The notes under the pieces were generated by a model, which did no database searches, was not told where the DNA came from, and was given only the letters and a program-made list of their open reading frames with translations. From a virus: DNA of 30,450 nt. A program made the position numbers and the translations under genes. Location: positions 1 to 30,450 of IMG/VR virus record IMGVR_UViG_3300030450_000230, one strand, 5' to 3'. The stretch's first letter is position 1; each line of letters opens with the position of its first letter. Positions 1,218-30,450 of the stretch are shown here, one piece after another.

Positions 1218-4200
1218 CTATTTATCTCTTTCTATTTCATTAATACGTTTAGAAAACTTAGTTACTGTAGATTCTGCTATATTAAACAATTTTTTATCAA
1301 ATGCTTCTTGTCTTTTTGTTTTTTCTTCACCTGATAAAACTGTGCTTTCTAACATTTCATTTTTTTGCTTTGTAATTTTTCTATAATTTCTAAGTGATCT
1401 TGATATTGTATTTTCAAATTGAAACAATATTTGATTATCTTTTTTGTATTGACGTAATTTATCACCTTTATATTTTTTTGCAGAATTTACTTTCATTTGC
1501 ACTTGATCAGCAATATCAAACATATTTTGCACATATTGAGAGTTTGGGCTTCTAGGTGGTGAAACTAAAAAACTCCTTATGATAGGATTATTCATTCCGC
1601 TTTTTGCTTTTTCAGATACTTCAACATTATTAAATTCTTTTATCTCATTTATAATTTTATCTGCTGCTGCTGTGACATATCGTTCCGTATTAGGAATAGT
1701 AGATTGCAATACTTTATCTATCATTACAGGCGATATATTGAATGCCTTGCCAGCTTCTTTAGAAAGCTCAGATGTATATCTTGTTGCTCTAAGTTCAGGC
1801 TCTAATTTATCTAAATATTCTGGATAAATATCTCTTCCTGTAAAAAAATCATAATTAGCAGCTATTTCAACACCTAATTTTGGTAAAGGCCCAAGTAAAA
1901 CTGTAGGATCAACTACTGGACTTAATGAAGATAACATCCCTTTACCAATGTCAGTATAAAAATTCTGGCCTTGTGGTTTGTTGCCTTCATACATCCATAC
2001 CATAAATTTTTCAGGTATTGATCCAAAAATATATCCTGGCGCAAAAGGTTTTGGTATTCGCTTCCAACCATCTTTTGTTTTGTAAACCCAATGCGTATCT
2101 TTTAGCCATTGTGGTATGTTTAAATATTCTTCTCTCTCATCATCATCTGCTTCATACAAATAATATCCTGTAATTAATATACTAGGTAATGTTATAGTGG
2201 ATAAAGCGATAGCCGTTGCAGTCTTAGGATTATCAAGAAACCTTCTTACAAGTTTATCTGTGCCTTGTATGCCAGCATTTAAAAACGGTATGTATCTATT
2301 TAATCTTTGTCCTATAACACCAGACCTACCAAAATCCACAGTAGCTTGCCTTGATTCAAGTGCAGCCGCTAAATCAGATAACCCATTTTTTTTATTCGCT
2401 AAATAAACTCCAACTCTGACTGATTCTTCTGCTTTTTGTGATATATCAAAAAATGGTTTTAGAGGATTTTTAAGTGTTTTTATAAAATATCCTTCATTTT
2501 TATAAAGCTCTTTGTTTGCATCATACAATCCAGAATCACTTAAATCCATGTACGTTCCATAAGAAGCCCCTGATGCCCTCCAATCTTGATACAACTGAGT
2601 ATCGCCCATAATAGCTGTCAAACCTCTTACTGTATCTATTGGTGTAGAAATGTTTTTAGATTGCAAAGACGAAGTGAAGCTATCTCTAATTAAATTTCTT
2701 ACAACAAAATCTATTGTGGTTGTTGCTGCTCGTCTAAAAATAAAAGATGGCACTATAAAAAACTTTTGTAAAAATCCTATTTGTTCTGCTCGCAAACCTT
2801 TCATAGCTTGCAACAATGGTTTTGAAACTTTAAAAAATTTCTTTTTTCCGTCTTGATATACTGCAATCGTGCCTTTTGGCTCTAATGGAGATGGCCTAAA
2901 AACTTCTTTACCGTCAACCATAAATTTTTGCATTAAAGGTTTTACAGGTTGTATATATTCAGGCAACACATCTTTTAATGCTACCACTGAGTTTGCAACA
3001 CGATTTCTATAAGAGATATCCATAATCTTTACTGTGTTTGCAATAATAGAATTTATAGGGTCTTTTATTTCTTTTTCTGATCCAACGAGTTTTTTTATTA
3101 TTGATTTTGCAGATTTATTTGAAAATAAAGCACCGCCTACATTGCCACTAAGCTGTTCTGCATTTTCATCTAATATTCTTTGAAATGGTATGTAATTTGG
3201 GTTTGCTTTAATAATATCTTCAAACTGTTTGCCTGTTAAATTACCAGATTGAACAAATAAATTTAATATTCGTTTTTGAAATTCATAAATTTCTTTTGCT
3301 GTAGAATCAAAAAATTCAATAGCATCGCCATATTTTGCAGTAATGTTTGCCATATCACTCAAAGATTTTTCAACTTGAGCGTCAGTTACTTTTTTATCTT
3401 CTTGCAAATCATTAAGACTTCTTCTAGCAATTAAATAATCAATTAAATCTTGTCTGCGTACATTTTGATCTTTTTCATATGGAATAATAGTAGCGTCAAA
3501 ATCATCAAGAATAGGTTTTAGACCATTTCCTGTATCAATTTTGTTCCCTCTTTCATCAATATAAAATGTTTTATTTTCTAAAACATATTTACTCATTCCT
3601 GTAATTCCAGAAAATGAACTAATTAAAAGAGTTGGATTTAATCCTTCTTTTATAGAAGCTCCACGCTCTAAAGCTTTTTTTACTAATCTGTTTACTCCGT
3701 CAAACTTGTCAACAAACAGACGATAAAAAGACGCAAATGTATTTTGTGTATTATCAATTTGTGCGGTAGGAACTTCATTTTGTTTTGTTTTAGGAATATC
3801 TACAAAATTACTAAACAAAGGTCTTATATATTCAGATGACTTTACTAAACCATCTGTTTCATTTACATATTCGTTAAATTCATCAAGATAAATATTGTAT
3901 GCAGCTTCATCTAAATTATCTGCAAAAACAATTTCATTTGCTTCATTAAATACTGGCACTAAATTATCATTTGTTTCAGCTACATCTTTGTAAGTGTCAA
4001 AAAAATAATTTTCTAAATTAGTTGCATCCATTTGTGCAAGGTCTGCAACTTCTGCATTTATTTCATTAATTTGACCATTTAAATCTGCTTCTAAAATAAA
4101 ATTGTCGTTTCCATTAAATAATACTCCTAATAAATCTAACATATCATTATCATCTAATGCGCGATCTTGTGATGATCCTGTTCTTGCATTTGGATCAAAA

Positions 4201-18281: not shown

Positions 18282-18632
18282 ATGAAAGACGAACTAAAAG
18301 ATTTAATTATAGAAACCATTAACAAAGATGAAGTTTATACAGATTGGTATTTTTTATATGAGGATTTAGATTATAACGGCTCAGTACATAGCATAATTGA
18401 TTCTAATATAGACATATATTATTACGATCTTAGACAATGGGCTGTGAATAATTGGGAATGGGTTGATCAAGCAAAAGATGAAGGATTATGTTCACCTGAT
18501 GCCGATTATCACGCAATGATTCAAGCGGGGCAATATGTCGCATTACTTGAAGAGGCTCAACAATACATCAAAGAATTATTCAATGAGATGAATGGCGAGT
18601 ATTTCAACATTGATCAAACTAAAACAGCATAA
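18282..18632 (+). CDS. Acidic early protein, candidate Ocr-like DNA mimic (anti-restriction)
   Basis: This 116-aa protein is the first gene of the early operon. It has 25 Asp/Glu against 7 Lys/Arg (net about -18), and many Tyr and Trp. T7 Ocr, the DNA-mimic inhibitor of type I restriction enzymes, is 117 aa, very acidic and also the first early gene. By eye the block IIDSNIDIYYYDLRQWAVNN resembles the family pattern IHEIADSxVPxYxxDLxxxAxxN, and DEGLCSPDADYHAMIQAGQY matches the later Ocr segment around its SGLMPD turn. It should act at once after DNA entry. The start ATG follows AAAAGGA with good spacing. The relationship is distant and unproven. Confidence 0.5.
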   Translation: MKDELKDLIIETINKDEVYTDWYFLYEDLDYNGSVHSIIDSNIDIYYYDLRQWAVNNWEWVDQAKDEGLCSPDADYHAMIQAGQYVALLEEAQQYIKELFNEMNGEYFNIDQTKTA

Positions 18633-20801: not shown

Positions 20802-20845
20802 TTTACTGCTCCTTTTAATAATTGATTGAAATAATGTTTTACACA

Positions 20846-20882
20846 TTGTACCATTATAAATACAATTAGTACAACAAGTCAA
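20846..20882 (-). promoter_or_regulatory. Strong early promoter (minus) with flanking operator half-sites
   Basis: On the minus strand TTGACT (20882-20877) and TATAAT (20858-20853) are separated by 18 bp. The -10 box is bracketed by GTACAA (plus, 20869-20874) and TTGTAC (plus, 20846-20851), an inverted pair with a 17-bp spacer. The arms are the same as those of the palindrome in the 18218 promoter. The predicted leader to the ATG at 20801 is about 45 nt. Confidence 0.75.
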
Positions 20883-20892
20883 AGGAAGAAGA

Positions 20893-20918
20893 ATGTTTTG
20901 GTGACATGATCAAAACAT
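20893..20918. promoter_or_regulatory. Palindromic candidate operator ATGTTTTG-N10-CAAAACAT
   Basis: A perfect 8-bp inverted repeat with a 10-bp spacer, just upstream of the -35 box of the minus early promoter and 150 bp before the HTH gene. Size and symmetry suit a dimeric HTH protein. A hairpin role in RNA is also possible. Confidence 0.45.
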
Positions 20919-20929
20919 AAAAATTAAGT

Positions 20930-21022
20930 TGATGATATGCCAGGTGGTCATCACTTAAAGGCTGACCCTACCTCCTTAGGGTAGCTAGGAAGGCTTGATC
21001 CACCTTTAGCCGAAACGGATCA
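20930..21022. other. Structured non-coding segment (several inverted repeats)
   Basis: The 266-bp gap between the two divergent operons holds four elements in 93 bp. They are TGATGA-N12-TCATCA (20930-20953), ACCCTA-CCTCCT-TAGGGT (20965-20982), GGCTGA with TTTAGCC (20960-20965 with 21006-21011, one G-T pair), and TGATCC with GGATCA (20996-21001 with 21017-21022). The loop of the second element and its flanks read ACCTCCTTA on the plus strand, identical to the anti-Shine-Dalgarno tail of 16S rRNA. The last stem interleaves with a GGCT/AGCC pairing (20992-20995 with 21008-21011), so a pseudoknot is possible. No open frame of note is present. It could be an RNA or a replication/control site. Confidence 0.45.
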
Positions 21023-21067
21023 TTTTATTGACAAAACGTGCCAATCAAAAAAACTTAAAGGAATATT

Positions 21068-21268
21068 ATGGATATTAGTAAAGCAATGAATCATTACATG
21101 AATGAATTAAATCTTAATCAATCTCAGTTTGCAGTCAAATGTGGTATGTCAATATCTATGACTTCAAAGATTGCTAGAGGTGAAAGAATACCATCTGTTA
21201 GCACGTTACAAAAGATATCAGATACTTGCGAAGTAAAGCTATCGGAGTTTATTAGGGCTGCTGAATGA
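21068..21268 (+). CDS. HTH repressor, Cro/CI (XRE) type
   Basis: This 66-aa protein is almost wholly an XRE-family helix-turn-helix. LNQSQFAVKCGMSISMTSKI gives helices 2 and 3 (Gln-Ser-Gln start, Cys-Gly-Met turn), then ARGERIPSVSTLQKISDTCE gives helices 4 and 5. There is no C-terminal cleavage or oligomerisation domain, so it is more like Cro than CI. It lies next to the divergent control region and leads the replication operon, and probably binds the palindromes at 18218, 20846 or 20893. AAAGGA lies 5 nt before the ATG. ATGA overlap couples it to the next gene. Confidence 0.8.
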   Translation: MDISKAMNHYMNELNLNQSQFAVKCGMSISMTSKIARGERIPSVSTLQKISDTCEVKLSEFIRAAE

Positions 21269-21891
21269 GTAATTATAATTTTGTGAAGCCAAACTATTAT
21301 GCAGTCATACCAGCTAGTGTCAGATATGATGACAAGATTTCAGCTAATGCAAAATTATTGTATGGTGAGATAACTTCACTGTGCAACAAAGAAGGTAAGT
21401 GTTGGGCTACAAATTCTTACTTTGCAAAGTTATACAACGTGCATAAAAAAACAATCAGTGCTTGGGTTAGCAGCCTTGTTGATGCAAAGTACATAGAAAT
21501 AGAAATTATTTATGCAGAAAATTCTAAAGAAATCGTAAACAGGTATCTACGAATTTGCGGTGAGGGTATCCATGAAATCACTCCTACCCCTATCCGTAAA
21601 ATCGCGGAGGATAATAATACAAGTATTAATATTAAATTTAATAAACCTACGGTTGATGAATTAGAAGAATATAAAAATGAAAAGGGTTATCAATGTGACG
21701 TACAACAATTTTTTGATTACCATGAATCAAAGGGATGGGTTGTTGGTCGTGTAAAGATGAAAGATTGGAAGCGTGCATTGTCTTACTGGGAATCAAACGA
21801 TAAAAAAAGGAGAAACAACTATGGAAAAACAACAGCTAAAACAACTTATGCAGCAAGCATATACAACTACGAAAAAGCCACAGACTTTTAG
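21265..21891 (+). CDS. Replication initiator, lambda O-like (HTH_36 domain)
   Basis: This 208-aa protein opens with a winged HTH of the HTH_36/replisome-organiser type: FVKPNYYAVIPASVRYDDKI, then SANAKLLYGEITSLCNKEGK and CWATNSYFAKLYNVHKKTIS, ending in a strand (YIEIEIIY) and RYLRI. The C-terminal half is helical, with a conserved-looking YHESKGWVVGRVKMKDWKRAL segment that often ends such initiators. It would bind the origin and bring in the helicase loader. Iteron-like repeats followed by an AT-rich stretch lie inside the gene (21522-21660), as in lambda O. It overlaps the next gene by 71 bp, which is unusual. Confidence 0.7.
   Translation: MSNYNFVKPNYYAVIPASVRYDDKISANAKLLYGEITSLCNKEGKCWATNSYFAKLYNVHKKTISAWVSSLVDAKYIEIEIIYAENSKEIVNRYLRICGEGIHEITPTPIRKIAEDNNTSINIKFNKPTVDELEEYKNEKGYQCDVQQFFDYHESKGWVVGRVKMKDWKRALSYWESNDKKRRNNYGKTTAKTTYAASIYNYEKATDF
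21522..21603 (+). repeat. Iteron-like repeats, candidate replication origin
   Basis: Four related units start at 21522, 21544, 21567 and 21591, spaced 22-24 bp. The best two are TATCCATGAAATC and TATCCGTAAAATC (11 of 13 identical). TATCTACGAATTT and TTCTAAAGAAATC are weaker. An AT-rich stretch follows at 21611-21652. Repeats of this spacing inside the initiator gene next to an AT-rich block are the plan of the lambda origin. Confidence 0.45.
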
Positions 21892-30100: not shown

Positions 30101-30450
30101 AATGTTGGGGTGGATAAAGAGCCGTCTGCGGCTATGTTAAAACGATAGACACTATTTGTGTCATCAAAAATACCAAACGCTCCATCATTATTTATAATAG
30201 AGTAATCAGAGTTGTGATTTGTGTCTGTTAATTTAATTCTAGGATAATCATAAACAAGCTCTAAATTGCCCCCTAAAGTCACCGTTGAATTGAATGTAGC
30301 CGCACCTGCCTCTGACATATCAAAAGTAAGCGCGTTGATAGTTGAACCAGCATCAGTTCCCTGTATAAATAAATCTTGGTCTGATTCACTTGCTCTGATA
30401 ATCAAACCTGCACTATGATGTATAAATCTTCCAAACTCAGTTCCACCATC
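27106..30450 (-). CDS. Long repeat tail fibre with self-cleaving chaperone domain (C-terminal part)
   Basis: This holds codons 143-1256 of the 1256-aa fibre that starts at 525; bases 30352-30450 repeat 1-99. Residues about 298-1015 (27832-29985) are ten 71-72-aa repeats rich in [NS]xA[IV]GxxAL words, like the beta-roll heads of trimeric adhesins. A degenerate part follows, then the C-terminal S74 chaperone (intramolecular endosialidase type) from about residue 1126, beginning SDERDKTDFTALDVGLDFVK. In this family the chain cuts itself just before such a Ser-Asp after trimer folding. Later marks are LKPYTYKWDK, FKAQEVEALE and a final helix IQEQQTLIESLTARITALEG. It is the likely receptor-binding fibre. 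Confidence 0.88.
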   Translation of the reverse strand, partial: DGGTEFGRFIHHSAGLIIRASESDQDLFIQGTDAGSTINALTFDMSEAGAATFNSTVTLGGNLELVYDYPRIKLTDTNHNSDYSIINNDGAFGIFDDTNSVYRFNIAADGSLSTPTLGTNNVRFGVNAGNSIVSGGNYNVLIGDESGTAITTGDQNVAIGYNSLKTEDTGSRSIAIGSSALKLQNAGDVNAYNIGIGHNTGINITTGTLNTIMGGLAGDALTTGFQNIAIGYGALGAETVGGDSVAIGTEALTTQNTSATSIYNVAIGTSAGRLITSGTRNTLIGGLTGDSLTTGEKNVAIGTGALSNDDVGNRSTAVGDSALASQNFASSTDSYNTAVGNNAGLSVTTGVENTFIGGRSGDATTDADFNVAVGSQALGDNTVGSQSVAIGYIALTSQNPSGATNMYNTAVGSQAAASLTTGFDNTIIGGLAGDALTDADYNVAVGKEALTTDTLGSRSTAVGWASLRSQNFTSATNSYNTAVGFQSGTNLTTGTDNVLIGGLTGDALTTSSRNTAIGRGALGAETTGQRTVAVGAFTLSSQNITDGSEIYNVAVGYGAGSNVTTGVQNTLIGGNAGDQLTDADLNVAIGYNSLGTDTLGSRSVAIGYEALKAQNFTSATESYNTVVGFHAGNDVTTGTSNTFIGGLSGDALTTGLGNVAMGVNSLGGETTGRYNVAIGENALKNQNFTGSNNVYNVAVGRMAGESITTGVSNTLIGGLAGDAMTDADANVAVGTSALGTNTVGSRSVAIGANALLRQNPASAADMHNIAIGHNSGENITTGQFNTIVGSLAGDALTTGTQNIAIGYAALGSDTKGQKSVAIGESALLVQNFTTATDVFNVAVGDNAGESVTTGIENTFVGGLAGDGTDDGAENTAIGYQSLSANCGNGNSALGRMALRDTTGTHNTAIGHQSGILVGTGNDNTFLGKDSGSTVTSGSNNVLIGHDAGASGSPGGSVTTQSNIIGLGDENITSLNAQVSLTVASDERDKTDFTALDVGLDFVKQLKPYTYKWDKRSKYGDKTADDYDLNAQTPDGTHKEDWLDVGFKAQEVEALEKAAGYDKANKTNLAVTMSEDGKQYGMQYEKLIPILTKAIQEQQTLIESLTARITALEGE
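27109..27501 (-). other. S74 (endosialidase-type) intramolecular chaperone domain
   Basis: This covers the final 131 codons of the fibre. The Ser at codon 1126 in SDERDK is the expected start of the released fragment. The end forms a helical bundle. The mature fibre would end near residue 1125. Confidence 0.85.
27832..29985 (-). repeat. Ten tandem 71-72-codon repeats in the fibre
   Basis: Units begin with N[VIT]A[VIM]G and have lengths 71, 71 and then 72 codons eight times (213-216 bp). Each holds four short words, near unit positions 1, 18, 39 and 56, ending in a GGLAGDALT-like turn. The eighth unit has NVAMG, and the eleventh (at 27831) is degenerate. DNA copies differ at many third positions, so this is an old array, not a recent duplication. 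Confidence 0.9.
30352..30450. repeat. 99-bp terminal direct repeat, right copy
   Basis: Identical to bases 1-99 and joined in frame with the fibre gene. Removing one copy closes the circle to 30,351 bp. Confidence 0.95.

Follow-up and report, generated by a model that had tools for sequence, protein, structure and literature searches.

The question raised by this locus is what a 93-base gap (20930-21022), crowded with inverted repeats, does in a phage genome and where it came from. It lies in an IMG/VR record of 30,450 nucleotides (IMGVR_UViG_3300030450_000230), analysed over its whole length and hereafter called the window. The inverted repeats listed in an earlier, sequence-only reading were present as placed (TGATGA/TCATCA, AGGTGG/CCACCT, ACCCTA/TAGGGT and TGATCC/GGATCA), and exact inverted pairs were more frequent in the gap than expected from shuffles: 32 vs 16.2 for 4-mers (P = 0.0005) and 5 vs 1.04 for 6-mers (P = 0.02). 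Of the 980 steps at which 93-nt stretches of the window were folded, the gap ranked 1-3 in stability, in part through its higher GC content (49% vs 37%); against its own shuffles the stability was modest (z of -1.8 on the plus strand and -1.2 on the minus strand).

The window genome appears complete, circular or circularly permuted, with a length of about 30,351 bp; its ends are identical over 99 bases (1-99 and 30352-30450), and contig L022 runs on across the joint of this terminal overlap. The phage is podovirus-like (about 30.35 kb) and encodes a T7-type head-tail connector (PF12236), whose closest annotated relatives, from Methylophilales phage MEP301 and a pelagiphage, share about 34% identity with it. 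A search of the window for tRNA and tmRNA genes found none. The gene at 18282-18632 resembles ocr-like anti-restriction proteins (phrog_2568, E 5.7e-06). The coordinates of the features at the locus are collected in Table 1. The sequence of the rightward early promoter is also found in relatives (e.g. L004, L010), and at 20838-20882 the overlapping divergent promoters are accompanied by an inverted repeat, TTGTAC...GTACAA, which is likely the operator of the HTH protein.

Table 1. Positions of the features in the window and the evidence for each.
Feature	Position	Strand	Evidence or remark
Likely promoter of the rightward early operon (TTTACA, 17 nt, TACAAT)	20838..20866	+	consensus scan only
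Leftward promoter (TTGACT/TATAAT)	20882-20853		consensus scan; overlaps rightward early promoter
Insertion relative to related phages, net 176 bp	20889..21056	+	alignment with L004/L010/L026/L031/L013/L027; ends approximate
Window-specific 5' part of the insertion	20889..20956	+	without match in L049, L050, L051
Conserved 66-nt element (core unit)	20957..21022	+	common to window, L049, L050, L051
Helix P1, 5' strand AAAGG	20957..20961	+	complementarity only; invariant in four copies
Hairpin P2 (GCT-G-ACCCTA / TAGGGT-AGC), loop CCTCCT, variable	20961..20985	+	comparison of copies
Helix P4, 5' strand TGATCC	20996..21001	+	complementarity, RNAalifold consensus; invariant
Helix P1, 3' strand CCTTT	21003..21007	+	complementarity only; invariant in four copies
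Helix P4, 3' strand GGATCA	21017..21022	+	complementarity, RNAalifold consensus; invariant
ACAAAACGTGCCAATCAAAAAAACTT, same as the sequence after the element in L050/L051	21031..21056	+	sequence comparison
Small HTH (Cro-like) regulator, gene downstream of the element	21068..21268	+	PF01381, E 1.7e-11
Replication initiation protein (DnaD-like), next gene in the HTH operon	21265..21891	+	phrog_19658, E 1.5e-28; PF13730

Relatives of the replication protein were encoded by 20 IMG/VR contigs. In L004, L010, L026, L031, L013 and L027, a short leader connects the promoter with the ribosome-binding site (CAAAGGAA in L004, L010 and L026; ATAGGAAT in L031, L013 and L027), the HTH gene follows at once, and the element is absent. 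These contigs align with the window to 20890 and resume at 21049 or 21056; the identity to L004 is 94.7% up to 20890 and 88% from 21049. The window thus carries an insertion, which has an imperfect repeat of the ribosome-binding site on either side (CAAAGGAA near 20881-20889, TAAAGGAA near 21056-21063). L022, a contig with 99.7% identity to the window, has this insertion unchanged. Upstream of the structured region (20881-20904), the original ribosome-binding site is followed at normal spacing by ATG TTT TGG TGA (Met-Phe-Trp-stop), possibly a leader peptide or a chance frame. Among the relatives, the HTH regulator exists in two versions (about 62% identity) with differing upstream operators (window 21068-21268 and L002, L003, L009, L015): some relatives have a replication protein that is 94-95% identical, with an HTH protein of only 62% identity and a different operator region. 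To judge by these comparisons, the HTH locus is prone to modular exchange. In the distant relatives L018/L033 and L019/L037, a pentapeptide-repeat-like coding stretch lies directly 5' of the HTH gene.

Part of the insertion recurs elsewhere. A pattern scan for GGYTTGATCCACCTTTAG retrieved three further IMG/VR contigs, L049, L050 and L051, carrying copies of a unit that starts with AAAGG, ends with GGATCA and measures 65-67 nt across the four copies. The boundaries drawn by the sequence-only reading were accordingly too wide: the recurring unit is 20957-21022, and 20930-20956 lies outside it. The homology between L049 and the window begins and stops exactly at the two ends of the unit. With a covariance model built from the four copies, which makes their own matches a matter of construction, the window scored 100.6 bits and the relatives 97.4, 91.5 and 91.0 bits; the next-best match elsewhere (33 phage loci) reached at most 16 bits.

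The L049 phage (49.6 kb) carries the unit between the gene of a 223-aa protein and that of a 135-aa protein, just before the ATG of the latter. The 135-aa gene matches phrog_2165, annotated there as DNA helicase; against that annotation, we read the protein as a putative nuclease. L050 and L051 derive from related phages with an HK97-type capsid, and in both the unit precedes the prohead protease gene (PF04586); the L051 copy shares bases with the stop codon of a preceding 89-aa ORF. In all three gene settings (HTH/replication, putative nuclease, prohead protease) the unit is on the coding strand and 5' of a gene, which leaves the free small RNA and the replication site proposed earlier without support. 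The window's connector and HTH protein had no relative in the L049-L051 records, two of which are fragments, and the carriers are phages of at least two unrelated kinds. The next start codon lies at differing distances from the unit (45 nt, 11 nt, and about 15 nt to a GTG), so that no single mechanism of translational occlusion fits. In L055 (the L049 phage, about 1762-1800, minus strand), a 9-bp hairpin, CTAACTAAC/GTTAGTTAG, stands directly 5' of the element; the window has the hairpin TGATGA/TCATCA just before the element, unrelated in sequence to the L055 hairpin.

The earlier statement that no gene explains the gap holds. The plus-strand translation (MPGGHHLKADPTSLG, stop, LGRL...) was ruled out as coding by its stop and by one-base indels among the copies (65, 66, 66 and 67 nt), because of which no reading frame is conserved, and tblastn gave one match (E = 2). 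What the copies do conserve is uneven. The 3' half of the element has one variable position (A/G) in 34 across the four copies. L050 and L051 agree at 76% of positions in the hairpin half and at 100% in the 3' half of the core, while neighbouring 67-nt windows range from 0.37 to 0.97 (mostly 0.7-0.9). These two phages share another identical run of 83 nt outside the element, so identity alone is no proof of constraint.

Hairpin P2 varies among the copies: two of its pairs are broken, one change is compensatory (C-G to U-A), and two replace a standard pair by a wobble (G-C to G-U and U-A to U-G). Such a wobble preserves the pair only in plus-strand RNA; on the minus strand the change would break it. 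Compensation in the hairpin is thus limited, and covariation, proposed earlier as the check, was no greater than in shuffles (130/500); four copies, two of them from related phages, are too few for it. Helices P1 and P4 are invariant, and covariation cannot test them for that reason.

The element may fold as an H-type pseudoknot, with P1 (AAAGG/CCUUU) and P4 (UGAUCC/GGAUCA) around P2. The two helices (5 bp and 6 bp) stand in crossing order in a regular arrangement, with 1 nt between them, P2 within loop 1 and a third loop of 9 nt, AGCCRAAAC. A pseudoknot had been suggested from TGATCC/GGATCA and GGCT/AGCC; the former pairing was retained with AAAGG/CCTTT as its partner, while the latter leaves 0 nt between the 5' strands, is sterically poor and may represent an alternative or added contact. 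The single-sequence fold of the core was unremarkable (z of -0.5 to -1.0). The window-specific 5' part of the insertion contains a hairpin, ATGTTTTG/CAAAACAT, and a strand, AGGTGGTCA (20942-20950, window only), which could on folding pair with TGATCCACCT and thereby disrupt the core. The competing folds of the window leader were predicted at -41.2 and -40.5, a difference of 0.7 kcal/mol. A fold switch through AGGTGGTCA is conceivable in the window and would not be a property of the family; the predicted competition with the conserved fold counts against a cis-acting leader in the window.

The exposed nonamer of the sequence-only reading, ACCTCCTTA, is indeed present, once in the window (20970-20978), but its first A and last TA are in the stem and only CCTCCT is predicted to be exposed; likewise, the minus-strand loop, described as a full AAGGAGGT, is predicted to expose AGGAGG only. 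The loop reads ACCTCCTTA in the window and L049, ACCTCCGTT in L050 and GACTCCTTA in L051: CUCC is kept in 4/4 copies, CCUCC in 3/4 and the full nonamer in 2/4. Since no more than CUCC of the loop is common to all copies, the anti-Shine-Dalgarno interpretation has weak support. The more general proposal of a structured non-coding element acting at the RNA level, possibly with a pseudoknot, gained from the copies in unrelated phages, and a riboregulator is still among its possible forms.

Searches beyond these phages covered several collections. The window and the homologous loci had no match in Rfam 15 at gathering thresholds, and permissive thresholds gave chance matches only. Distant blastn against annotated phages, plasmids and E. 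coli gave no match or chance matches only. A pattern of the 31-base core had no match in bacterial genomes (84,980 species genomes scanned by pattern), and a looser pattern gave 75 matches there, none extending into the core. The covariance-model scans covered about 1,300 bacterial genomes in all, with no convincing copy: in two classes (385 + 274 genomes, centred on a Rhodospirillaceae and a Pseudomonadales genome) there were 7 matches at E <= 0.01 vs about 6.6 expected, and in two groups centred on a Paludibacteraceae and a cyanobacterial genome there were none at E <= 5e-4. Two further pattern scans gave no copies beyond L049, L050 and L051, and a literature search for the core sequence gave no match. 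Several candidates were rejected: L048 as a homologue (an 18-mer shared by chance, inside a coding-looking stretch); the matches of the element to L025 and a tail spike (chance); HDV-like, hammerhead, attC and IS200/605-end readings, whose helix order or conserved bases do not fit (by eye); and an HDV-like/theta ribozyme, whose nested double pseudoknot comprises P1, P2 and a P3 hairpin, with a catalytic C in J4/2, since only 6 nt lie between TGATCC and AGCC, which leaves no room for that hairpin (by hand, from the order of the helices).

The direction of transfer can be read from the sequence behind the unit. In L050 and L051, ACAAAACGTGCCAATCAAAAAAACTT is continuous with the prohead-protease frame (V P I K K T ...), in which Leu codons differ synonymously between the two (CTA/TTG); in the window, it leads into no gene. 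As the fragment in the window corresponds to the start of the protease and is a dead end there, the window copy probably came from an L050-like phage. On the minus strand of L050 (4960-5060) and L051 (5520-5620), the protease frame reaches upstream to the element with coding-type changes; L050 has an in-frame TAG where L051 has AAG, and recoding of the protease frame is possible.

The reading that we prefer, with a probability of about one half, is that the unit is a structured RNA of 66 nt, working in cis on the transcripts of phages and passed horizontally between unrelated ones; most likely it constitutes a new family of cis-acting RNA of phage mRNA leaders. The element, together with a fragment from the start of a probable donor's prohead protease gene, was inserted into the 5' leader of the early HTH/replication operon. 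On this account, transcription would reach it after about 80-90 nt of the message, and its fold would control the expression of the gene just downstream, through translation, processing, antitermination or self-cleavage. Its partner is more likely the host ribosome, RNA polymerase, a ribonuclease or a small molecule than a phage protein, because no regulator shared by the carriers was found.

An unlikely alternative places the activity in the DNA: a REP-like or recombination site, bound as hairpin DNA and spreading by insertion, to which the RNA fold is incidental. Sharp ends, an invariant sequence, three unrelated places and an insertion with a short repeated target (AAAGGAA) would suit such an element; it is opposed by the wobble changes, which keep pairing only in plus-strand RNA, by the coding-strand orientation in 3/3 settings, and by a non-exhaustive search that saw no transposase or integrase nearby. 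It is improbable, too, that the copies are a non-functional stretch left by recent exchange between phages. Their small number and near identity could be explained by recent transfer alone, the locus is prone to recombination (two HTH versions with their operators among close relatives) and the window carries a piece of a donor gene, but neutral hitchhiking is opposed by an L049 homology that begins and ends exactly with the unit, and by a hairpin that diverged while the core stayed constant, a contrast found also between L050 and L051, which have different flanks.

Phages often carry anti-defence genes, and the ocr-like gene in the same genome, with the CUCC loop of all copies (predicted exposed in the window), would fit an RNA that acts in trans, either as a small RNA or decoy pairing with ribosome-binding sites or by blocking host defence. 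We hold this to be improbable: L050 and L051 do not retain the nine-base match to the 16S tail, genes follow directly upon the unit (which in L051 overlaps the preceding stop codon), and consensus scans of the window, weak evidence in themselves, detected no promoter within the unit and no terminator. It is unlikely as well that the unit is a self-cleaving ribozyme, or an RNA-processing site of another kind, from a class absent from Rfam, with a pseudoknotted core that cuts or marks the transcript between genes. In favour of this, the unit is small and sharply bounded, its core is highly conserved with a single variable hairpin, and its intergenic contexts are unrelated; small ribozymes such as theta ribozymes occur in phages and provide a precedent (PMC10879173); however, the helix order of HDV-like ribozymes is not reproduced (a P3 hairpin is missing from the stretch that separates the first strands from the return strand), none of the Rfam ribozyme models gave a match and no cleavage site could be named.

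Known systems resemble the element in part. HDV-like minimal and theta ribozymes are likewise small pseudoknotted RNAs in phage intergenic space (PMC10879173); unlike them, the element has no P3 hairpin, no tRNA in the window and no Rfam match. Like the put RNAs of phage HK022, the element would be a short, structured RNA found in an early-operon leader of a phage, presumably acting in cis without a phage protein. The put RNAs are cis-acting antitermination leaders of lambdoid phages, consisting of two plain stem-loops; by contrast, 2/3 settings of the element are between genes and not in a leader, and the likeness was drawn by description only. H-type pseudoknots also occur in leaders and riboswitches (the T4 gene 32 leader, preQ1 and SAM-II classes), which the element resembles in its possible H-type pseudoknot 5' of a gene and in its A-rich third loop (RAAAC), and from which it differs by the hairpin in loop 1, the lack of an Rfam match, of a common metabolic gene and of a fixed distance to the ribosome-binding site.

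A protein gene is part of most mobile units known from phages. A 66-nt RNA found almost unchanged before an early regulator gene, a putative nuclease gene and a capsid-protease gene in unrelated phages would amount to a portable control part relying on host machinery only. It is possible, though doubtful, that the unit is the founding example of a hitherto unknown functional class of phage RNA, one that moves between unrelated phages as an independent genetic part. It would then be either a new self-cleaving ribozyme or a protein-free element of antitermination or translation, driven by the host machinery. The unit is small enough for direct reporter work, and the covariance model offers a handle for finding further copies.
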